Of a stretch of DNA of 38,134 bases, positions 2,224 to 29,554 are shown in pieces. Numbering within the stretch: the stretch's first letter is position 1; each line of letters starts with the position of its first letter. A program made the translations under genes and the position numbers. The stretch lies in NCBI GenBank assembly GCA_026393975.1, contig JAPKZD010000015.1:62640-100773 (forward strand), given 5' to 3'. The notes beneath the pieces are model-generated. The model saw only the letters and a list, made by a program, of their open reading frames with translations. It was not told the origin of the DNA and did no database searches. The stretch comes from Candidatus Aminicenantota bacterium. Lineage in GTDB: Bacteria; Acidobacteriota; Aminicenantia; Aminicenantales; Saccharicenantaceae.

Positions 2224-3337
2224 TAAGGATTATTACCAGGTCCTCGGTGTGGCCCGGGACGCCTCCGTCGAGGACATCAAGAAGGCCTACCGCCAACACG
2301 CCCTGAAGCACCACCCGGACCGCAATCCCGGCAGCAAAGAGGCCGAGGAGAGGTTCAAGGAAGCGGCGGAAGCCTACAGCGTCCTGGCCGACGCCGGGAA
2401 AAGGTCTGCCTACGACCGCTTCGGGCAGGACGGCTTGCGCGGCGATGGCTTCTCCGGGTTCGACTCCTCCGTTTTTGAGGGCTTCGAAGACATCCTTGGG
2501 AATTTATTCGGGTTCAGCTTCGGCGATTTCTTCGGCGGACGGAGCGCCGGCCGAGGCGGCCGGCGGGGGGGCCGCGACCTGGCCCTGGAGGTCGAGATCG
2601 GCCTCGAAGAGGCCGCCGCTGGCGTGGAGAAGGAGATCAAAATGAACCGGGCGGAGACCTGCCCGGCCTGCCGGGGCTCGAAACGGAAACCGGGGACCCG
2701 GGCGACGTCGTGCCCGACCTGCGGGGGCACGGGACAGGTCCGTTATCAACAGGGCTTCTTCACCCTGGCCAGGACCTGCCCGCGATGCCAGGGCGGGGGG
2801 GAAATCAACGTTTCGCCGTGCGAATCCTGCCAGGGGAAAGGGCACGTCAGGGAGAAACGCTCCCTCAAGGTTCGCATCCCGGCAGGCGTCGCGGACGGGT
2901 CGCGGCTGAGGCTCGTCGGCGAGGGCGAGGCCGGGGAGGAAGGCATGCCGGCCGGGGACCTTTATGTCGTGACCCGGGTCCGCAAGCACCCCTTCTTCGA
3001 ACGGGAGGCGACCGACCTCGCCTGCGAGATCACGGTCTCCTTCACCCAGGCCGCCCTCGGCGCGCGGGTCGAGATCCCCACGCTCGAAGGGAGCGAGATC
3101 CTGAGGGTCCCGGCCGGGACCCAGCCGGGCGAGATCATCCGCCTCAAGGGGAAGGGCATCCAGGACGTCGCCGGGCGGCGGAAGGGCGACCTTTTCGTCA
3201 AGGTCCAGGTGCGGACGCCCGAAAACCTTACTAAAGACCAAAAGATCCTGCTGACGAAACTGGCCGAAGTCCGGGGCGAGGACATCGAATCGGTCGACAA
3301 GAGCGTCATCCACCGGATGAAGAATATTTTCCAGTGA
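2216..3337 (+). CDS. dnaJ: DnaJ (Hsp40) co-chaperone
   Basis: Type I DnaJ, 373 aa, which delivers clients to DnaK and stimulates its ATPase. The J-domain starts at the N-terminus ([12 protein letters not shown]) and has the invariant HPD ([10 protein letters not shown]). A Gly/Phe-rich linker follows (about residues 75-120, [18 protein letters not shown]). The zinc region has [24 protein letters not shown] and CESCQGKG; the first deviates from CxxCxGxG at its last Gly but keeps both cysteines. The C-terminal client-binding domains are complete ([22 protein letters not shown]). The chosen ATG overlaps the end of dnaK by 8 bp (ATGGCTAA), so translation is probably coupled. Open sequence upstream of this ATG in the same frame is only the dnaK gene read out of frame. 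Confidence 0.95.
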
Positions 3338-4450: not shown

Positions 4451-5374
4451 ATGAGCCCATTCACCGAAAACGGCATCGTCTGGATGAACGGCAGGCTGGT
4501 CGCCTGGAAAGACGCGACGATCCATCTCGCCTCCCATGTCATCCATTACGGGAGCTCGATCTTCGAAGGCCTGCGGGCCTACGACACCCCCCGCGGGACG
4601 GCCCTCTTCCGCCTCCCGGACCACACCCGACGGCTCTACAATTCGTGTAAGATCTACCGGATGGAAGTCCCGTATTCCCAGGACGAGTTCAACCGGGCCG
4701 TCATCGAGACCGTCCGGGCCAACAGTCTGAAATCCTGCTACGTCCGGCCCATCGTCTATCGGGGGTACAACAGCTTGGGCGTCAATCCCTTCCCCAACCC
4801 CGTCGACTGCGCCGTCCTTGTCTGGGAGTGGGGCAAGTACCTCGGCCCTGACGCCATGGAGAACGGCGTGGACGTCTGCGTGTCCTCCTGGTGGCGGATC
4901 GCCCCGAACACCTTCCCGGCCTTGGCCAAGGCCGGCGCCAACTACATGAACTCCCAGCTCATCAAGATGGAGGCCCTGCTCGACGGTTACGAGGAGGGCA
5001 TCGCCCTGAACATCCGCGGCCATATCAGCGAGGGGAGCGGCGAAAACCTCTTTTTGGTCAAGGACGGGACCGTCCTGACGCCGCCGCTGTCCTCCTCCAT
5101 TCTGCCGGGGATCACCCGGGACTCGGTCATGACGCTGCTTCGCGAGATGGGCGTGCGCTGCGTCGAGGAGACCATTCCCCGCGAGATGCTCTACATCGCC
5201 GACGAGGTCTTCTTCACCGGCTCCGCGGCCGAGGTCACGCCTATCCGGTCGATCGACAAGATCGTCATCGGGAACGGCAAGCGGGGACCCGTGACCGAGA
5301 AGGTCCAGAAGGCCTTCTTCGACGTCATCGGCGGCAAGCGGGAAGACGCCCATCATTGGCTGACCTTAGTTTGA
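4451..5374 (+). CDS. ilvE: Branched-chain amino acid aminotransferase (PLP fold type IV)
   Basis: 307 aa, the usual length of bacterial IlvE. It catalyses reversible transamination between Leu/Ile/Val and their 2-oxo acids with 2-oxoglutarate, the last step of branched-chain synthesis or the first of degradation. Family signatures include HYGSSIFEGLRAY near the N-terminus and RPIVYRGYNSLGV. The PLP lysine is in LAKAGANYMNS (K160), followed by EEGIALNIRGHISEGSGENLF and PGITRDSVM. The closing TGSAAEVTPIRSID segment is typical of IlvE rather than of D-amino-acid transaminase or ADC lyase. The ATG is preceded by AAGGAG with 6 bp spacing. It is followed after 22 bp by the PilT-like ATPase on the same strand. 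No other branched-chain pathway genes are nearby. Confidence 0.93.
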   Translation: MSPFTENGIVWMNGRLVAWKDATIHLASHVIHYGSSIFEGLRAYDTPRGTALFRLPDHTRRLYNSCKIYRMEVPYSQDEFNRAVIETVRANSLKSCYVRPIVYRGYNSLGVNPFPNPVDCAVLVWEWGKYLGPDAMENGVDVCVSSWWRIAPNTFPALAKAGANYMNSQLIKMEALLDGYEEGIALNIRGHISEGSGENLFLVKDGTVLTPPLSSSILPGITRDSVMTLLREMGVRCVEETIPREMLYIADEVFFTGSAAEVTPIRSIDKIVIGNGKRGPVTEKVQKAFFDVIGGKREDAHHWLTLV

Positions 5375-5396
5375 CAAACCTTACGAGGAGGCTCTC

Positions 5397-6554
5397 ATGG
5401 TCATCGATGAATTCCTGAAGATCGCGATTGAACGGGACGCGTCGGACCTTCACTTCAAGGCCGGCAACAACCCCATGATCCGCGTCCACGGGACGCTCAC
5501 GCCCCTGACCGGGTTCCCCCGGCTGACGGCCCCAGACTGCGAGGAGTTGGCGAACCAGTTGATGACCGAATTCCAGAGGAAGAGGCTGCAAGAGGACCTC
5601 GACCTCGACCTCGCCTACAGCCTCCCCGGGTTCGGGCGCTTCCGCGGCAGCATCTACCGCCAGAGGGGCTCCCTGGCCATCGCCCTGCGCATCATCCCTC
5701 TCGAGGTCAAGACGATCCGCCAGCTCCTTCTGCCCGAAGTCCTGGAGAAGGTCGCCTTCTACCAGCGCGGCCTCGTCCTCGTGACCGGGACGACAGGGAG
5801 CGGCAAGACGACCAGCCTGGCGGCCATGGTGGAATACATCAACACCTTCCGCCGGGAGAACATCATCACCATCGAGGACCCCATCGAGTACCTCCACAAG
5901 GACAAGAAGAGCACGATCAGCCAGCGGGAAGTCGGGATGGACGTCATGAGCTTCGCCCGCGGGCTGCGCGGCTGCCTCCGCGAGGACCCCGACGTCATCC
6001 TCGTCGGGGAAATGCGCGACCTGGACACGATCGAGACGGCGCTCCTCGCCGCGGAAACGGGCCACCTGGTCCTGAGCACGCTCCACACCCTCGACGCCCC
6101 CGAGAGCATCAACCGGATCATATCCGTCTTCGCCCCCCACCACCAGCGCCAGATCCGGCTCCAGCTGGCCAGCATCCTCAAGGCCATCATCTCGATGCGC
6201 TTGGTCCCGCGGATGGACGGTCAGGGCCGCGTGCCCGCCGTCGAGGCCATGATCGCGACCCCCTACATCCAGGAGTGCATCGCCGAGAAGGACAGGACCA
6301 TGATGATCCGCGACGCCATCGCGGCGGGCGTTTCCCAGTACGGCATGCAGACGTTCGACCAGTCCATCTACCAGCTCTACCGCGACGGCTACATCTCCTT
6401 CGAGCAGGGGATGAAGTACTCTTCTAATCCGGACAATTTCAAGCTCCGCATCATGGGCATCCAGTCGACCATCGACATGGCGACCGAGGAGATGGAGAAG
6501 GGGATGAGCAAGATCGACCGGGCCGAGGGGGGGCCGGAAGAAGATCATAAATGA
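5397..6554 (+). CDS. pilT: PilT/PilU-family twitching motility ATPase
   Basis: 385 aa hexameric ATPase that powers retraction of type IV pili at the inner-membrane base. It shows the N-terminal DASDLHFKAGNNP motif of the family, Walker A GTTGSGKTT (131-139), Asp box TIEDPIEY (158-165), Walker B DVILVGEMRD with catalytic Glu205, and His box HLVLSTLHT (223-231). The C-terminal MQTFDQSIYQLYRDGYIS segment resembles PilU more than PilT, so it could be the accessory retraction ATPase. No PilB, PilC or pilin gene is in the window. GAGGAG lies 6 bp before the ATG. The stop overlaps the alaS start (ATGA), implying translational coupling with a housekeeping gene. Confidence 0.9.
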   Translation: MVIDEFLKIAIERDASDLHFKAGNNPMIRVHGTLTPLTGFPRLTAPDCEELANQLMTEFQRKRLQEDLDLDLAYSLPGFGRFRGSIYRQRGSLAIALRIIPLEVKTIRQLLLPEVLEKVAFYQRGLVLVTGTTGSGKTTSLAAMVEYINTFRRENIITIEDPIEYLHKDKKSTISQREVGMDVMSFARGLRGCLREDPDVILVGEMRDLDTIETALLAAETGHLVLSTLHTLDAPESINRIISVFAPHHQRQIRLQLASILKAIISMRLVPRMDGQGRVPAVEAMIATPYIQECIAEKDRTMMIRDAIAAGVSQYGMQTFDQSIYQLYRDGYISFEQGMKYSSNPDNFKLRIMGIQSTIDMATEEMEKGMSKIDRAEGGPEEDHK

Positions 6555-22632: not shown

Positions 22633-22760
22633 TAGGAGCAGAACATATTTTTAACGAATACATGAAATAATTATTTTTGGACGAGAATGAAGTCTCGATT
22701 ACATCGACCTCCCCTTCTAAAGAATCGCCGCAGGACCCATTTCATAGGCGGAAACAGGCG

Positions 22761-22778
22761 ATGTCGGCACGCCGACAT
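22761..22778. repeat. Perfect hairpin ATGTCGGC-AC-GCCGACAT
   Basis: An 8-bp perfect stem with a 2-nt loop lies in the non-coding DNA between the divergent parA and permease genes. No U-tract follows on either strand. Operator or structural role unknown. Confidence 0.4.
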
Positions 22779-22876
22779 TCTGCTTAACTCATTGAATATT
22801 AGGAAGATAGCCCGTAATATTTTTGAGAGTTTATAAAACAGTTCGTCAAGGGACGAGCCTTTGCGGCGGAAGTGGA

Positions 22877-22995
22877 CCCCCGGGCAAGCCCGGGGGCCGG
22901 GCTTCCCAGTCCCGGACCTGCCGGCTTCGCCACCGGCTTTGCAGTGCCGGTGCTGGCAACCGGCAGCACTGCCACCGGCTTGGCAGTGCCGGTGC
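22877..22995. repeat. Structured intergenic repeat, locus B
   Basis: B1 is a hairpin of a 9-bp stem and 2-nt loop, CCCCCGGGC-AA-GCCCGGGGG (22877-22896). It is followed by GGGCTTCCCA (22899-22908), a 37-bp core (22930-22966), and a second partial core of 24 bp (22972-22995) differing by one base. The core matches locus A (12014-12050) on the opposite strand at 36 of 37 positions. The order hairpin, GGGCTTCCCA, core is the same in both loci when A is read on the minus strand. This part of the window also reads as a spurious protein of repeated GTAKPVA units, which is only the repeat in translation. Confidence 0.75.
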
Positions 22996-23067
22996 CCCCG
23001 CCGCTGAAGAGGTGAGTGATATTCAAACGGGACTGAACGCCAAAATAAGAATATCGATGGGTATATA

Positions 23068-23113
23068 TAGGTTCATTAAAAAGTTAACAATAGGTTCATT
23101 AAAAAGTTAACAA
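23068..23113 (+). repeat. Perfect 23-bp tandem repeat, two copies
   Basis: TAGGTTCATTAAAAAGTTAA followed by CAA occurs at 23068-23090 and again, identically, at 23091-23113. It ends one base before the -35 element of the permease promoter. A 23-bp period is about two helical turns, as expected for adjacent sites bound on one DNA face. Each copy contains GTTAAC. Confidence 0.8.
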
Positions 23114-23114
23114 A

Positions 23115-23142
23115 TTGTATAAGTATATGATAATAATATAGT
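23115..23142 (+). promoter_or_regulatory. Putative promoter for the methyl-transfer operon
   Basis: TTGTAT (23115-23120), 16-bp spacer, TATAGT (23137-23142), in an AT-rich stretch directly after the tandem repeat. The predicted start is near 23149. Confidence 0.5.
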
Positions 23143-23149
23143 TAAGAGT

Positions 23150-23178
23150 ATGTTTCCTAGTATCTCTTTGGGAAACAT
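23150..23178. promoter_or_regulatory. Operator-like inverted repeat at the permease transcription start
   Basis: ATGTTTCC (23150-23157) and GGAAACAT (23171-23178) are perfect inverted arms around a 13-bp spacer. A further GAAACA lies at 23184-23189. The position at +1 to +30 suits a repressor site. The halves also resemble parS halves (TGTTTC/GAAACA), but the spacing is wrong. Confidence 0.5.
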
Positions 23179-23238
23179 GCGGGGAAACAGGATTGCCTGT
23201 TGGAACCTAACGAGATTTTGCGTACAATGAGGGTCGCG

Positions 23239-24690
23239 ATGACCATGGCCAGTGAAGACGCATCGAAACCCGGGTTTCTCAGGCGACTCGGCCTGCTGGA
23301 CACATCCTTCCTCGTCATCGGCGCCGTGGTCGGCTCGGGTATCTTCATGACGCCCGGTCTCATCGCCGCCGGCCTCCCCTCCCCCGGCCTCCTCCTGACG
23401 GTCTGGCTGGCCGGAGGCCTGGTCACCCTTTGCGGGGCCCTTTCTTTCGCCGAACTCGGGGCCATGTACCCGCAAGCCGGCGGCCAGTATGTCTACATCC
23501 GGGAGGCCTACGGCCCAACTGCGGCTTTTCTGTTCGGCTGGGCTTTTTTCGGTTTCATCATGTGCGGCGGGCTGGCGGCCTTGGCCGTTGCCTTCGCCGA
23601 GTTCCTCGGGTCCTTCGTCCCCGCTCTCTCGACGGGACACTTCCTTTTCCGGGTCGAAGCGGCCGGGCTTTCCTACAGCCTCTCGGCCGGACAGGTCGTC
23701 GCCGCCCTGTCGATCCTGGCCCTGACGTTCGTCAATTCGTTCGGCATCCGTTCCGGTGCCGTCGTCCAGAACCTCCTGACCGTTTTCCGTCTCGGCACCG
23801 TCGCCGCGCTCGTCGGCCTGGGTGTCCTCTTTGGTGTTAAGGCTGGCGGCGTGAATTTTCATCCCCTGTTCCCGCCGGGGCCGGCCTTCCCCGCAATCCT
23901 CAAGCCGCTCGGGCTGGCTTTCGTGGCCGTCTTTTGGACGTACGACGGCTGGTATTCGGTCAACTGCACGGCCGGGGAGATACGGGACCCTGAACGTACC
24001 ATTCCCCGCGGCCTGACCCTGGGCGTCCTGGCCGTCACCGTCGTCTATGTCCTTGTCAACTTCGTCTACCTGCTGGCCCTTCCCCTCGAAAAGATCAGCG
24101 GGGTCGTTCGCGTCGGCGAACTGGCCGCCTCGGCCCTTTTCGGTGGCGGCGGAGCCGCCTTGTTCTCAGCCCTGGTCATGGTCTCGGTCTTCGGCTGTCT
24201 GAACGCCAACATCCTCTTCGGCCCCCGCGTATTCTACGCCATGGCCCGGGACGGGCACTTTTTCCGGGCCATGGGCCGGCTGGGCGCCCGGAGCAGGGTC
24301 CCTACTGGGGCCCTTTGGGGTCAGGCGGCCTGGTCGGCCGTCCTCTGCCTGTCGGGGACCTACGAATCGCTCTACGAGTACATGGTTTTCGCCCTCCTCC
24401 TCTTTTTCGCGGCGACGGGGCTGGCCGTCTTCGTCCTCCGGCAGAAGCACCCGGGGACGCCCCGCCCTTACCGGACCTGGGGATATCCCGCCGTTCCTCT
24501 GGTTTTCATCGTCATGTGCCTAGCGGTATTTTCGAGCATCGTCATCTCCCAGCCGCTCAAGTCCGCGGCCGGGGCCGGGCTTCTCCTGGCGGGCTTCCCC
24601 GTCTACCTGGTCTGGAAGAACCGTAGCGGCCGCAACCCGGCCGGGACGATAAAAAAAGATTCCCCGGAAACCGAATTTCGTTTAAGATGA
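23239..24690 (+). CDS. APC-superfamily amino acid/amine permease
   Basis: 483 aa, about 12 transmembrane helices. The first helix carries the substrate-binding GSGIFMTPG motif of the LAT/APC family, followed by FAELGAMYPQAGGQYVYIREAYG and, in helix 6-7, FWTYDGWYSVNCTAGEIRDPERTIPRG. These place it near LAT-type exchangers and basic or neutral amino acid transporters. The start is uncertain: ATG at 23239 has GAGGG 5 bp upstream; ATGs at 23227 and 23245 and a TTG at 23200 are in frame. It ends 25 bp before the corrinoid-activator gene, so it is probably the first gene of that operon and a candidate importer of the methylated substrate or of methionine/homocysteine. That role is inferred from position. 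Confidence 0.88.
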   Translation: MTMASEDASKPGFLRRLGLLDTSFLVIGAVVGSGIFMTPGLIAAGLPSPGLLLTVWLAGGLVTLCGALSFAELGAMYPQAGGQYVYIREAYGPTAAFLFGWAFFGFIMCGGLAALAVAFAEFLGSFVPALSTGHFLFRVEAAGLSYSLSAGQVVAALSILALTFVNSFGIRSGAVVQNLLTVFRLGTVAALVGLGVLFGVKAGGVNFHPLFPPGPAFPAILKPLGLAFVAVFWTYDGWYSVNCTAGEIRDPERTIPRGLTLGVLAVTVVYVLVNFVYLLALPLEKISGVVRVGELAASALFGGGGAALFSALVMVSVFGCLNANILFGPRVFYAMARDGHFFRAMGRLGARSRVPTGALWGQAAWSAVLCLSGTYESLYEYMVFALLLFFAATGLAVFVLRQKHPGTPRPYRTWGYPAVPLVFIVMCLAVFSSIVISQPLKSAAGAGLLLAGFPVYLVWKNRSGRNPAGTIKKDSPETEFRLR

Positions 24691-24715
24691 AGCCGTTCGA
24701 AAAACCGAGAAGCCG

Positions 24716-26497
24716 ATGACCGACACGTCCTTCACCATCCAGGTCCTTCCCGACGGGATCAAGGTCCGGGCCCGGGCTGGCGAGGTCCTGTCCGACGTCC
24801 TCGCCCGGGCTGGGATCCCGCTCAGTCTCTACTGCCACCAGCGGGGGATCTGCGGCAAGTGCGCCGTCCGCATCCTCAACGGTCCCCTGCCCTTCCCCGC
24901 CGCGCTCGAGGCGTCCCTTCTCGAGAACCGTCGGCTCGGCCCCGACCATCGGCTGGCCTGCGGCTATGAAGTCCGCAGCGACCTCACCGTGGAAACGCTC
25001 CCGGGATCGCGCCTCGAAAAGATCGCCGTCCTCGACACGGGAGCCCCTTCGGCGGTCTTCATCGACCCGGCCGTGAAGAAGCTCTCGCTCGTCCTGGAGA
25101 AGCCGTCCCTGTACTCACCGACAGCGGTGGCGGACACCCTCCGGGCGCACCTGAAGTCGCCCGGGCTCGGCCTTCCCTTGGCGGTCCTGTCGAAGCTCGG
25201 CGGCCCGATCCTCGCCGGGGGACGGCGGGCGACCGCCGTCCTCTACGACGACCGGGAGATCCTCGACATCGAACCGGACGACACCGGGAGCGAGGCCTAC
25301 GGCCTGGCGGTCGACCTGGGCACGAGCACGGTCGTCGCCGAGCTCGTCGACCTGAGGACCGGGAAGGTCGTCGAGCGGGTCGCCGCGGTCAACGCCCAGA
25401 ATTCCTACGGCGCGGACGTCGTCTCGCGGATCACTTTCGCCTTCGAGAACCCCGATAACCTCCAGCGCCTGAAAAATGTCGCCGTCCAGCTCATCAACGA
25501 CCTCGTCGCAGGCATGTCCAGGCGGAGCGGAGTCCCCCGTCACCGCATTTACGACGCGGTCATCGCCGGGAACGCGGTCATGAACCACATCCTCTGCGGC
25601 GTCACCGTCGACACGCTCGCCCTCGCCCCCTTCCACGCCGTGTTCTCGAGCCTGCCGCCGCTCCCCGCCTCCGACGTCGGGTTCGCCCTCCATCCCCAGG
25701 CCCGGGTCTATATCGTGCCCAACATCAAGAGCTTTGTCGGCGGGGACATCACGGCCGGGCTCGTCGCCTCGGAGTTCGCCGGGAAGGCCGCGAACGAGCT
25801 CTACATCGACCTCGGGACCAACGGCGAGATCGTCCTCAAAAAGGGCCGCGAATTCGTGACCACGTCGACGGCCGCCGGCCCGGCCTTCGAAGGGATGAAC
25901 GTCAGCTGCGGCATGCTGGCGGTCGCCGGGGCCATCCACCGGGCAGAATGGGACGACGGCTTCAAGTTCCGCACGATCGACAATCTTCCTCCCCAGGGCG
26001 TCTGCGGGACCGGCCTCATCGACATCCTGGCCCTGGCCTTGGCCCGGGATGTCCTCGGCCGCGACGGCCGGATCGCCGGACCGGAAAAGAAGATCCGGCT
26101 GACCGACCGGCTTTCCCTGACCCAACAGGATGTCCGGAACGTCCAACTGGCCGTGGCTGCGGTCAGGAGCGGGGTGGGGCTGATGCTCCGGGAGTTCCGG
26201 GTTCCGATGGCGCAGCTCGACCGGGTCTTCGTCGCCGGGGCTTTCGGCGGTTCCCTGGATATCGGGAACGCCCAGGACCTGGGGCTTCTGCCGGATGTCC
26301 CCGAGAGCAAGGTCGCGTTCATCGGCAACGCGTCATTGGCCGGGGCCCGGAAGCTGCTCCTGTCCAGGCCCGACCGGACGGTCGCGGAGACCTTGGCCGC
26401 CAAGATCGCCCATGTCTCCTTGGCCACCCGTCCGGATTTTCAGGACGAGTTCGTCCAAGCCCTCGAATTCAAACGGTATTCGGGAGGGGAAAAATGA
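24716..26497 (+). CDS. RamA-like reductive activator of corrinoid proteins (ferredoxin + ASKHA, DUF4445)
   Basis: 593 aa. The N-terminal 2Fe-2S ferredoxin domain has cysteines C40, C46, C49 and C82 (YCHQRGICGKCAV, LACGYEV). A linker region (about 90-190) precedes an ASKHA/DUF4445 ATPase with AVDLGTSTVVAELVD (about 196-210), VIAGNAVMNHIL, IDLGTNGEIVL and VFVAGAFGGSLDIGNAQDLGLLP. Proteins of this type (RACE proteins; acetogen activators) use ATP to reduce inactive Co(II) corrinoid to Co(I). RamA of methanogens uses 4Fe-4S centres instead, so this is the bacterial 2Fe-2S form. It is the reactivase for the corrinoid protein two genes downstream. Its stop overlaps the next start (ATGA). Confidence 0.92.
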   Translation: MTDTSFTIQVLPDGIKVRARAGEVLSDVLARAGIPLSLYCHQRGICGKCAVRILNGPLPFPAALEASLLENRRLGPDHRLACGYEVRSDLTVETLPGSRLEKIAVLDTGAPSAVFIDPAVKKLSLVLEKPSLYSPTAVADTLRAHLKSPGLGLPLAVLSKLGGPILAGGRRATAVLYDDREILDIEPDDTGSEAYGLAVDLGTSTVVAELVDLRTGKVVERVAAVNAQNSYGADVVSRITFAFENPDNLQRLKNVAVQLINDLVAGMSRRSGVPRHRIYDAVIAGNAVMNHILCGVTVDTLALAPFHAVFSSLPPLPASDVGFALHPQARVYIVPNIKSFVGGDITAGLVASEFAGKAANELYIDLGTNGEIVLKKGREFVTTSTAAGPAFEGMNVSCGMLAVAGAIHRAEWDDGFKFRTIDNLPPQGVCGTGLIDILALALARDVLGRDGRIAGPEKKIRLTDRLSLTQQDVRNVQLAVAAVRSGVGLMLREFRVPMAQLDRVFVAGAFGGSLDIGNAQDLGLLPDVPESKVAFIGNASLAGARKLLLSRPDRTVAETLAAKIAHVSLATRPDFQDEFVQALEFKRYSGGEK

Positions 26498-27384
26498 CCT
26501 TGCCTCTGCTCGACCTCGTCAAGACACGGACCGTGCTCCTCGATGGCGCCATGGGAACCGAACTCATGGCCCGGGGACTCCCCCAGGGGACGGCTCCGGA
26601 AGCCTGGAATGTCGAACGGCCCGGCGTCGTCAAGGAGATCCATGGCGAATACTTCGCGTCCGGCGCGGATGTCGTCTCGACCAACAGCTTCGGAGGAAAC
26701 GCTCTCAAATTGGCCGGCCATGGTTTCGGGGGCCGGACCTATGAGCTGAACCTGGCGGCGGCCCGCCTGGCCCGGGAAATTGCCCCCGCCGGACGCTACG
26801 TGGCTGGAAGCATGGGCCCCACGGGAAAGTTTCTGAAACCTCAGGGGGAATTCACCGAGGAGGACTTCGCCGCCGCTTACGCCGAACAGGCCCGCGGCCT
26901 CACCGACGGCGGGGCGGATGTCCTGCTCGTCGAGACCCAATACGACCTGCGCGAAGCTCTCGCGGCAGTCCGCGGCGTGCGAAGCGTTTCTTCGCTTCCC
27001 GTCTTCGTCACGATGACATTCAACTCGGTCCCCCGGGGCTATTTCACCCTCATGGGAGACTCCGTCGCCCGGTCGGCCGCGGAGCTCGAGAAGGAAGGCG
27101 TCGGGGCCGTGGGGGCCAACTGCACGCTGAACAGCGAACAGATGGTCGGCTGCGTCCGGACCCTCAGGGCGTCGACGGCCTTGCCCATCATCGCCCAGGC
27201 CAACGCCGGCCAGCCGGTCATCGGCCAGGACGGCCGTGTCGGCTATTCCCAGGGCCTTGAAGACTACGTGCGGTTCGTCCCCGAGATCGTCCGAGCCGGC
27301 GCCGGCCTGGTCGGAGGCTGCTGCGGGACGAATCCCGCGTTCATCCGGGCCATGGCCCAAATATTCAAAAAGGAGCGGTCATGA
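26494..27384 (+). CDS. Stand-alone homocysteine S-methyltransferase domain (MetH N-domain-like)
   Basis: 296 aa TIM barrel of the homocysteine-binding family. It shows VLLDGAMGTELMARG, TNSFGGNALKL and the three zinc-ligand cysteines, Cys210 in GANCTLN and Cys276-Cys277 in GGCCGTNP. It would transfer a methyl group to the thiolate of homocysteine, giving methionine. The ATG at 26494 follows GGAGGGG and overlaps the preceding stop by 4 bp; the long open stretch upstream is the activator gene out of frame. The position between a corrinoid activator and a corrinoid protein suggests that methyl-cobalamin on that protein is the donor. Methylmethionine- or betaine-dependent homologues exist, so donor identity is inferred. 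Confidence 0.9.
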   Translation: MTLPLLDLVKTRTVLLDGAMGTELMARGLPQGTAPEAWNVERPGVVKEIHGEYFASGADVVSTNSFGGNALKLAGHGFGGRTYELNLAAARLAREIAPAGRYVAGSMGPTGKFLKPQGEFTEEDFAAAYAEQARGLTDGGADVLLVETQYDLREALAAVRGVRSVSSLPVFVTMTFNSVPRGYFTLMGDSVARSAAELEKEGVGAVGANCTLNSEQMVGCVRTLRASTALPIIAQANAGQPVIGQDGRVGYSQGLEDYVRFVPEIVRAGAGLVGGCCGTNPAFIRAMAQIFKKERS

Positions 27385-28034
27385 ACAAAGACGAGCTCTT
27401 ACGGAGCATGAACGAAGCGATCGTCGCCGGCAACAAGGCGGCGGCCGCGGCCCTCGGGGCGGAAGCCGTCCGGTCCGGGGCGGACCTTCTCGAGGTCATC
27501 GAGAAAGGGTATGTCCCCGGCCTCCAAAGAGTTGGAGAGCTCTGGGAACAGGGGGAGTATTTCCTGCCCGAGCTCATCTCGAGCGCCGAGGCCATGAAAG
27601 CGGCCATGGCCGTTCTCAAGCCGGAACTCGATCGGAAGAATATCGAGGCCCGGAGGGGCGGAAAAGTGGTCATCGGGACGGTCGAGGGCGATATCCACGA
27701 CATCGGGAAGAACTTGGTCGCTTCGATGCTTCAGGCGGGCGGCTTCGAGGTCTACGACCTCGGGGCCGACGTCAAGCTCGAGCGGTTCATCGAAAAAGCC
27801 GAAGCGGTGGGCGCGGGGATCATTTGCCTGTCCGCCCTGCTGACGACGACGATGACCAACCAGAAGCGGCTCATCGGGCTTCTCCACGAGAAGGGCCTCC
27901 GCGACAAGTACAAGGTCCTCGTCGGCGGCGCGCCTGCCAGCCATAAGTGGGCCGATGAAATCGGAGCGGACGGCTACGCCGAAAACGCAGTCGCCGCGGT
28001 CAAGCTGGTCCGGACCATGACCGGCGGGGACTGA
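27381..28034 (+). CDS. Methyltransferase cognate corrinoid protein (MttC/MtgC type)
   Basis: 217 aa. A helical cap domain (about 1-90, with YVPGLQRVGELWEQGEYFLPELISSAEAM) precedes a Rossmann B12-binding domain. The lower axial ligand is His106 in GDIHDIGKN, followed by CLSALLTTT (Ser151, Leu153) and VGGAP, the complete DxHxxG-SxL-GG signature. It shuttles methyl groups between the MttB-family methyltransferase encoded next and an acceptor enzyme, here most simply the homocysteine methyltransferase encoded just before (ATGA overlap). The length is typical of MttC/MtbC/MtgC proteins; no fused methyltransferase or activation domain is present. Confidence 0.94.
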   Translation: MNKDELLRSMNEAIVAGNKAAAAALGAEAVRSGADLLEVIEKGYVPGLQRVGELWEQGEYFLPELISSAEAMKAAMAVLKPELDRKNIEARRGGKVVIGTVEGDIHDIGKNLVASMLQAGGFEVYDLGADVKLERFIEKAEAVGAGIICLSALLTTTMTNQKRLIGLLHEKGLRDKYKVLVGGAPASHKWADEIGADGYAENAVAAVKLVRTMTGGD

Positions 28035-28084
28035 GACGGGGCCGGGCGAACGAGCTCCTGGAAAAAAAGAGAGAGAGGTTGGAG

Positions 28085-29554
28085 ATGATCAAAATAAAAA
28101 GGCCGAAACTGGAACTCCTGAGCGGGACGTTCGTCGAAATGCTCGTGGACGAGGGACTGACGCTCCTCGAAACGCAGGGGATCATGGTCGAGAACGCCGA
28201 GGCGCTTCGACTTCTCGGCGACGCCGGAGCCGTCGTCGACCTGGCCTCCCAGAGGGCTCGGCTCGGACGGCGGCTGGTCGAGGGATGTTTGGCTTCCACA
28301 CCGTCTTCCATCACCCTCTTTGACCGGAGCGGCGAGAAGGCGTTTGCCGTCGGCGGTGACGAAGTCCATTTCGACCCCGGCTCCGCGGCCGTGACCCTCC
28401 TAGATCACGACACGCAGGAGGAACGCAAGGCCGCGACGGCCGACCTCGTGGACTTCTACAAGCTCGTCGAAACCCTGGAGAATATCCATTTCCAGAGCAC
28501 GGGCCTCATCTCCTCCGACGTCCCGGCCGCGGTCTCCGACGGCTACCGGCTCTACCTCGGGCTGTGTCTTTCGGCCAAGCCGTTCGTCACCGGGACCTTC
28601 CGCGTGGAGGGTTTCCGGCCGATGAAGGACTTCCTCGTCGCCGTCCGCGGCGGCGAGCGCGAGCTTCGCCTCAAACCGCTGGCCATTTTCGACGCCTGCC
28701 CCTCCCCTCCCCTCAAGTGGAGCAACCTGACCGCCCAGAGCCTGCTCGACGCCGCCCGGGCAGGGATCCCGTCCGAGCTCATCTCCATGGGCTTGACGGG
28801 AGCGACATCGCCGGTCACGATTGCCGGGACGCTCGTCCAGCACGTGGCCGAGAACCTCTCCGGCCTGACCATCTGCCAGGTCGTCGCCCAGGGCGCGCCG
28901 GTCATCTTCGGCGGCTCCCCGGCGAGCTTCGATATGAGGAAGGGGACGACCCCCATGGGCGCCGTCGAGACGATGATGATCGACTCGGCCTACGCTCAGA
29001 TCGGCAAGTTCCTGAAATTGCCCACCCATGCCTACATGGGGCTGAGCGACGCCAAGGTCAACGACCCCCAAGCGGGGTTCGAAACGGCCATGGGGGCCGT
29101 CTTGGGGGCGCTTTCCGGGATCAACGTCATCTCCGGTCCGGGGATGCTGGACTTCGAGAGCTCGCAAAGCCTCGAAAAACTCGTCATCGACGACGGCATC
29201 TGCGCCATGGTCTACCGCCTCTTGGCCGGCATCGCCCAGCGGGACGACCCCATCGCCCTGGGCCTTTTCGAGGGGTTCACACCCGACATGCAGTTCCTCT
29301 CCCTTCCCCACACCCGCCAATGGTACAGGAAGGAGCACATCCAGGCCGGCCTCGCCGACCGCGACCCCTACGAAGCCTGGGTGACGGCGGGCCGGACGTC
29401 CATTGTCGACAAGGCCCATGCCGACGTCCGGCGGCGGCTCGAGGAGTACGATGCTTCTCCGCTCGCCGATCCCGTCCGCAAGGAGATGGACAAAATCATG
29501 GCCGCCTATGCCCGGTCCCAAGGCGTCGACCGTCTGCCGGTGTGGGACTTCTAG
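28085..29554 (+). CDS. MttB-superfamily methyltransferase without pyrrolysine
   Basis: 489 aa TIM-barrel methyltransferase of the trimethylamine methyltransferase (MttB, COG5598) superfamily. Recognisable parts are the N-terminal LLSGTFVEMLVDEG...GIMVENAEALRLLGDAGA, FQSTGLISSDVPAAVSDGYRL, and the central GGSPASFDMRKGTTPMGAVET and GPGMLDFESSQSLEKLVIDD segments. No in-frame UAG interrupts the gene, so it is a non-Pyl member like MtgB (glycine betaine), MtpB (proline betaine) or MtcB (carnitine). It should demethylate a quaternary or other methylated amine onto the adjacent corrinoid protein. The substrate is unknown. GAGAGG lies 6 bp before the ATG; a TTG two codons earlier is less likely. It is the last gene of the operon and ends with UAG. 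Confidence 0.9.
   Translation: MIKIKRPKLELLSGTFVEMLVDEGLTLLETQGIMVENAEALRLLGDAGAVVDLASQRARLGRRLVEGCLASTPSSITLFDRSGEKAFAVGGDEVHFDPGSAAVTLLDHDTQEERKAATADLVDFYKLVETLENIHFQSTGLISSDVPAAVSDGYRLYLGLCLSAKPFVTGTFRVEGFRPMKDFLVAVRGGERELRLKPLAIFDACPSPPLKWSNLTAQSLLDAARAGIPSELISMGLTGATSPVTIAGTLVQHVAENLSGLTICQVVAQGAPVIFGGSPASFDMRKGTTPMGAVETMMIDSAYAQIGKFLKLPTHAYMGLSDAKVNDPQAGFETAMGAVLGALSGINVISGPGMLDFESSQSLEKLVIDDGICAMVYRLLAGIAQRDDPIALGLFEGFTPDMQFLSLPHTRQWYRKEHIQAGLADRDPYEAWVTAGRTSIVDKAHADVRRRLEEYDASPLADPVRKEMDKIMAAYARSQGVDRLPVWDF

Follow-up and report, generated by a model that had tools for sequence, protein, structure and literature searches.

Introduction

In the quaternary-amine:tetrahydrofolate (THF) systems MtgABC, MtqABC and MthABC of D. 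hafniense and E. limosum, a non-pyrrolysine MttB homologue is found with a corrinoid protein and an activase, and a methylcorrinoid:THF methyltransferase passes the methyl group on to THF (PMC12155760). Substrates are known for only about six members of the MttB superfamily, and the donors of the known non-pyrrolysine members are mostly carboxylated quaternary amines (PMC12155760). The three-part methionine synthase of Phaeobacter inhibens carries its PF02574, PF00809 and B12 modules on separate, scattered genes, is served by a ferredoxin-DUF4445 activase and includes no MttB protein (PMC5764234). For Ruegeria pomeroyi DSS-3, which has MtgBCDE and RamA, a study in PNAS in 2025 described one MtgC-like protein that serves both methionine synthesis and amine demethylation; mtgC and mtgD mutants lose both methionine synthesis and betaine-dependent growth, and mtgD is followed by a metF paralogue, metF2 (PMC12478193). 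In the open-licence literature, covered mostly through titles and abstracts, we found no account of the operon types described here beyond the Ruegeria and Phaeobacter work.

Here we analyse a stretch of 38,134 nucleotides (the window) from a Candidatus Aminicenantota bacterium (GCA_026393975.1, contig JAPKZD010000015.1, positions 62,640 to 100,773), in which a first-pass annotation made from the sequence had proposed a direct route from a methylated amine to methionine.

A compact operon with the modules of a methionine synthase

Five genes, all on the + strand, form an operon in which the gene order, domains and coordinates given by the first-pass annotation were confirmed:

22633..23238, no strand: divergent upstream region with two tandem TAGGTTCATTAAAAAGTTAACAA copies (~23065-23111)
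23239..24690, + strand: APC-superfamily amino-acid permease (Pfam PF13520, AA_permease_2, 6e-59)
24716..26497, + strand: RACo/RamA-like corrinoid reductive activase with an N-terminal [2Fe-2S] domain (PF14574, PF17651, PF17650, PF00111, Fer2)
26494..27384, + strand: stand-alone homocysteine S-methyltransferase, like the MetH homocysteine module or MtgE (HCY; PF02574, 2e-68)
27381..28034, + strand: corrinoid protein, MtgC/MttC-like (CORR; B12-binding_2 PF02607, B12-binding PF02310)
28085..29554, + strand: MttB-superfamily methyltransferase, non-pyrrolysine, of a distinct and mostly HCY-associated clade (PF06253, 1e-86)

The spacings also stand: 25 bp, an ATGA overlap (26494-26497), a second ATGA overlap (27381-27384) and 50 bp. 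An Rfam scan of the upstream region gave no match of note, and no riboswitch was found 5' of the operon. The tandem TAGGTTCATTAAAAAGTTAACAA repeat 5' of the permease gene is possibly an operator or regulator site, and a palindromic GC-rich stretch lies upstream of the same gene at ~22900-23003. The closest related locus has 96% protein identity, and most of the other close loci are from Candidatus Aminicenantes. Among the neighbours of MttB genes no extra conserved partner was found, recurrent neighbours being mostly antisense or random frames, and the permease adjoins the MttB unit in several Aminicenantes. The permease probably imports the methyl donor.

HCY has all three zinc cysteines that had been noted earlier (C210, C276 and C277, invariant in an alignment of ten sequences), and CORR retains the cobalamin motif DIHDIG, scores 235 bits with TIGR02370 (cut-off 215) and has MttC 7xcn and 1y80 as its closest solved structures. 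The activator had been called RamA-like; a corrinoid activase it is, but with 380 bits for NCBIfam AcsV and 169 bits for RamA (cut-off 500 bits), both below the respective cut-offs, this Fer2-containing protein scores better as a RACo/AcsV-like activase than as RamA proper.

HCY could also be imagined to act without a corrinoid in the manner of BHMT or MmuP-MmuM, methylating homocysteine with betaine or S-methylmethionine brought in by the permease. Indeed, HCY scores 217 bits with a bacterial 'betaine-homocysteine' model, and an HCY-type Bmt of Phaeobacter used betaine and DMSP to form methionine in vitro (PMC12366255). However, with the MmuM-type model HCY reaches no more than 119 bits, against a cut-off of 215, its closest solved structures are those of MetH, and its gene overlaps that of the corrinoid protein, making cofactor-free transfer very improbable.

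Compared with MetH, the system contains homologues of all three chemical modules, but not in one polypeptide; MttB is added as an inlet, and the operon in the window has a RACo-like activase where MetH has its activation domain, which relatives encode as a separate gene.

Methionine synthesis in the host genome

The host genome (2.95 Mb, 95% complete) lacks MetH, MetE and acetyl-CoA synthase (ACS), the window MttB is its sole PF06253 protein and HCY is its sole PF02574 protein. Since neither MetH nor MetE nor another PF02574 protein is present, HCY is the host's sole methionine synthase candidate within the families searched, and methionine synthesis in Aminicenantes without MetH and MetE is thereby given a concrete gene set.

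The first-pass annotation had further argued that a folate methyltransferase of the MtgA/MtqA type is absent, and that the folate domain of MetH has been exchanged for MttB. The absence holds for the window, whose operon contains no PF00809 protein, but not for the genome. There a PF00809 search gave two proteins: one strong match, which we take to be dihydropteroate synthase, and a second protein encoded on a different contig from the operon. This second protein, a stand-alone pterin methyltransferase (L004 1378-2307), overlaps a metF-like gene of the MTHFR family (2300-3103), resembles methyl-THF:corrinoid methyltransferases and retains DVN, SID, LNS, IDP and SN, which we take to be the motifs of folate:corrinoid methyltransferases. 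A folate methyltransferase elsewhere that pairs with CORR had been named as evidence against a direct route, and the finding of a pterin protein beside a metF-like gene goes half of the way towards it. A split MetH-like system with MttB in the place of the folate module is supported for an operon whose host has no MetH or MetE and many of whose relatives have stand-alone activation domains; because a pterin protein is encoded elsewhere in the host, is found in 32 of the 41 class genomes that have MttB but no MetH, and lies beside HCY in six genomes (see below), the folate module appears to have been moved and MttB added, rather than one exchanged for the other. A Wood-Ljungdahl role for the pterin-metF pair was considered and rejected, ACS being absent from the host and present in only 4 of the 71 class genomes.

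We consider it reasonably probable (about 0.64) that the operon specifies a methionine synthase in separate parts, dependent on B12 and built on one corrinoid hub, with MttB and folate as its inlets and homocysteine as its outlet. CORR would be the hub and MttB one methyl inlet; the methyl group would move from CORR to homocysteine by means of the zinc-containing HCY, yielding methionine, and the RACo-like activase would re-reduce cobalamin that has slipped to Co(II). The separate pterin methyltransferase and metF-like locus would link CORR to folate in the host, so that methyl-THF could likewise feed methionine synthesis, or methyl groups of amines could drain into folate. Gene content, operon structure, catalytic motifs, the absence of MetH, MetE and ACS and the conserved association are visible in the sequence; the direction of transfer, the sharing of the corrinoid protein and the identity of the donor we infer. 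The compact operon would connect methionine with the donor side of amine demethylation.

The resemblance to the Ruegeria MtgBCDE system (PMC12478193) is considerable, and includes an MttB-family protein, stand-alone corrinoid and HCY proteins, a DUF4445 activase, an unlinked pterin protein encoded directly before a metF-like gene, and a genome without MetH and MetE, which is usual for that system but not obligatory. It also brings up a catabolic alternative, in which methyl groups from MttB are handed to folate and oxidised by way of the pterin protein and MetF, with HCY serving only housekeeping methionine synthesis and being co-located for expression with a common CORR. In Ruegeria, betaine strongly induces MetF2, encoded next to MtgD, and MetF2 is interpreted as an enzyme that oxidises methyl-THF (PMC12478193); the host has the matching pterin-metF gene pair. 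The 4-bp overlap of the HCY and CORR genes within the operon argues the other way, as do the many phyla with HCY in which a stand-alone pterin protein was not found (see below), and we regard purely catabolic demethylation as improbable.

The folate branch of the hub has a possible competitor within the host. A second corrinoid protein is followed by a UroD-family methyltransferase (PF01208), a pair (L149, G000:C21:55000-65000, 4766-6456) that recalls MtaA-like (mlp) gene clusters (PMC10418091). This second corrinoid protein, with its UroD-type methyltransferase, could be the partner of the host pterin protein, which counts against the hub model. It would also fit a direct, folate-independent route in which MttB is the sole inlet and homocysteine the sole outlet, with the pterin-metF locus unrelated and serving, for example, the second corrinoid protein. 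This is the route originally proposed for the operon; the evidence from the host genome does not support it there, and we rate it as unlikely.

Pterin proteins and MetH across the class

The class-wide survey (71 genomes) bears on the same question. Of the 43 genomes that lack MetH, 41 have MttB; of the 28 that have MetH, 9 do (Fisher p ~1e-8, not corrected for descent). MetE is present in a single one of the 71. MetH and MttB thus tend to be mutually exclusive, a tendency that rests on few independent changes: a tree-corrected test, in which independent pairs were drawn from a tree of the single gene DHPS, had only 5 supported pairs and no power. Within one sister genus, MttB is missing from 5 of 6 genomes with MetH and present in all 7 without it.

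A pterin protein, stand-alone or fused to MTHFR, is encoded outside canonical MttB clusters in 32 of the 41 MetH-less genomes with MttB, and the pterin gene directly adjoins the HCY gene in six class genomes, both of which speak against the direct route. No pterin protein was found outside a canonical MttB cluster in the remaining nine, for which incomplete assembly is a possible cause. In four of the six genomes with adjoining pterin and HCY genes (G015, G016, G053 and G054), the sole PF02607 protein is encoded next to MttB instead. In seven sister-genus genomes the operon's CORR is likewise the sole PF02607 protein, a stand-alone pterin protein is present, and MetH and MetE are absent. The simplest reading of these two sets of genomes is one corrinoid hub common to MttB, the pterin protein and HCY, a model for which Ruegeria provides genetic support (PMC12478193).

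Reactivation modules vary within the class: units of Aminicenantes mostly have a RACo-like activase, sometimes together with a MetH activation domain, and sometimes the activation domain alone. Canonical MttB clusters, in which a pterin gene adjoins, are also found in the class (G003, G004 and G005), and their MttB proteins fall outside the clade of the window MttB. In three Aminicenantes loci (L112, L113 and L114), canonical-looking amine:folate clusters that seem to use the activation domain as well, a pterin methyltransferase is accompanied by three MttB-family paralogues, two corrinoid proteins and a match to the profile of the stand-alone MetH activation domain. An 871-aa frame in Aminicenantes (L103 2433-5045) looks like a fusion of MTHFR and pterin methyltransferase, and pterin matches lie in similar frames of ~830-950 aa in several related genomes. 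Extra HCY matches in two genomes of one genus (G025:C25:106182 and G026:C12:478135) lie in frames of ~650 aa, about as long as bifunctional HCY-MTHFR proteins of the PRK08645 type.

Related loci in other phyla

Conserved adjacency of these genes without an MtgA/MtqA gene had been suggested as a check by the first-pass annotation, and the survey of related loci bears on it. Among 80 related MttB loci, 46 have an HCY gene no more than 3.5 kb away on the same strand, and they come from at least 14 phyla; the operon association is therefore more than chance; a stand-alone pterin gene on the same strand within 7 kb was found in none of the 80. Outside Aminicenantes, the usual unit has genes for MttB, for the MetH activation domain on its own, for CORR and for HCY, arranged in either of two orders; the two activation domains that were scanned match PF02965 with E ~1e-9. 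The interchange of unrelated reactivation modules within the unit, a RACo-like activase or a MetH activation domain, indicates a methionine-synthase-like function.

Through such loci we reached 37 genomes from other phyla, 33 with HCY in the cluster and four with the activation domain and CORR only. A PF00809 search found a stand-alone pterin protein in five and not in the other 32, although the assemblies are mostly incomplete and of unstated completeness, and divergent PF00809 proteins can be near the detection limit. In 20 of the 37, including the closed chromosomes of a Neomarinimicrobiota (CP070638) and a Gemmatimonadota (CP070666) bacterium, the pterin domain is present only in a long frame (at least 771 aa, and more than 1,000 aa in 19 of the 20), which we read as MetH. 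The remaining 12 have neither a stand-alone pterin protein nor a long frame; three of these match the MetE family, and one is a partial assembly of 1.1 Mb.

Together with the 0 of 80 loci, these counts favour direct transfer, and the simplest reading of the lineages without a stand-alone pterin protein would be a direct route from donor to homocysteine. The search covered the PF00809 family, with the MtrH- and UroD-type methyltransferases outside it, which tempers that reading. A strictly folate-free system is more probable elsewhere than in the host genome, and the direct amine-to-methionine route of the first-pass annotation would survive mainly in other phyla. More broadly, a widespread class of folate-independent B12 methionine synthases may exist in at least 14 mostly uncultured phyla, consisting of a distinct MttB clade with a near-invariant active site and a single common donor, CORR, an activation domain or RACo-like activase and zinc HCY, and making methionine directly alongside MetH or in its place; we hold this tentatively, at somewhat worse than even odds. 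If it is true, methylated amines or a like donor would be a direct source of the methionine methyl group for many uncultured bacteria.

A Zixibacteria genome has a different arrangement: three genes for a corrinoid protein, a pterin methyltransferase and HCY (L152 1183-3591) form a compact three-part methionine synthase, and the same genome also holds a cluster of HCY, activation domain and MttB (L016).

The MttB clade and its methyl donor

The non-pyrrolysine nature of the MttB homologue, claimed at the outset, is clear: Leu320 occupies the pyrrolysine site (MttB position 334), where members of the clade have L, F or M. The AlphaFold model (pLDDT 92.8) superimposes on MttB and MtgB with TM 0.92-0.94. 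Placement in a tree with characterised homologues, also proposed earlier, was obtained with respect to D. hafniense MtgB: in a tree of 113 sequences, the window MttB belongs to a 98-row clade (SH-aLRT 99) that leaves out D. hafniense MtgB, S. meliloti 4yyc, pyrrolysine MttB and the class's canonical clusters, the limits of the clade not being fixed by the sampling since most rows were retrieved by similarity to the window MttB.

Within the clade 86 positions are near-invariant, of which 29 are unlike both MtgB and MttB, among them S100, D107, R155, T169, F172, W212, E231, Y317, F357 and E358. S100 and E358 correspond in the alignment to Gly110 and Gly372 of MttB, residues in contact with the corrinoid and with the water bound to pyrrolysine (PMC9842639). 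In the AlphaFold model, several of the other clade-specific residues sit at barrel-strand ends. Since near-invariant, clade-specific residues include some at corrinoid- and water-contact sites and at barrel-strand ends, the clade members may share one donor, which the sequences suggest is not necessarily glycine betaine. Comparison of the 29 positions with MtgB and MttB pointed to no nameable donor. The clade is unlike MtgB at most pocket positions inspected, and a 'quaternary amine' donor is therefore suggested by family precedent; the amino-acid permease would be compatible with a carboxylated quaternary amine. Because the acceptor, homocysteine, is legible from the clade operons and the barrel residues are sharply conserved, a screen for donors would have a defined read-out.

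These features also set the locus apart from the published systems. In contrast to Ruegeria, HCY, CORR, MttB and the activase are here encoded in one operon, the clade of the window MttB lies outside D. hafniense MtgB (the Ruegeria MtgB is not in the tree), and many relatives of the window MttB have a MetH activation domain and no visible stand-alone pterin protein. Where the quaternary-amine systems have a methylcorrinoid:THF methyltransferase, the operon has HCY instead, with the pterin gene on another contig, and unlike the Phaeobacter unit it includes MttB and is compact. What is new is thus the separate MttB clade, marked by near-invariant barrel residues that are specific to it, the compact encoding, and the association with HCY in at least 14 phyla, mostly with no stand-alone pterin protein seen in the sampled genomes.

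Finally, an Ignavibacteria locus (L015 3884-9461) has an aromatic amino acid ammonia-lyase (PF00221, 535 bits), an APC permease and a clade MttB in a row, hinting that the donor could possibly be an aromatic amino acid betaine such as hercynine.
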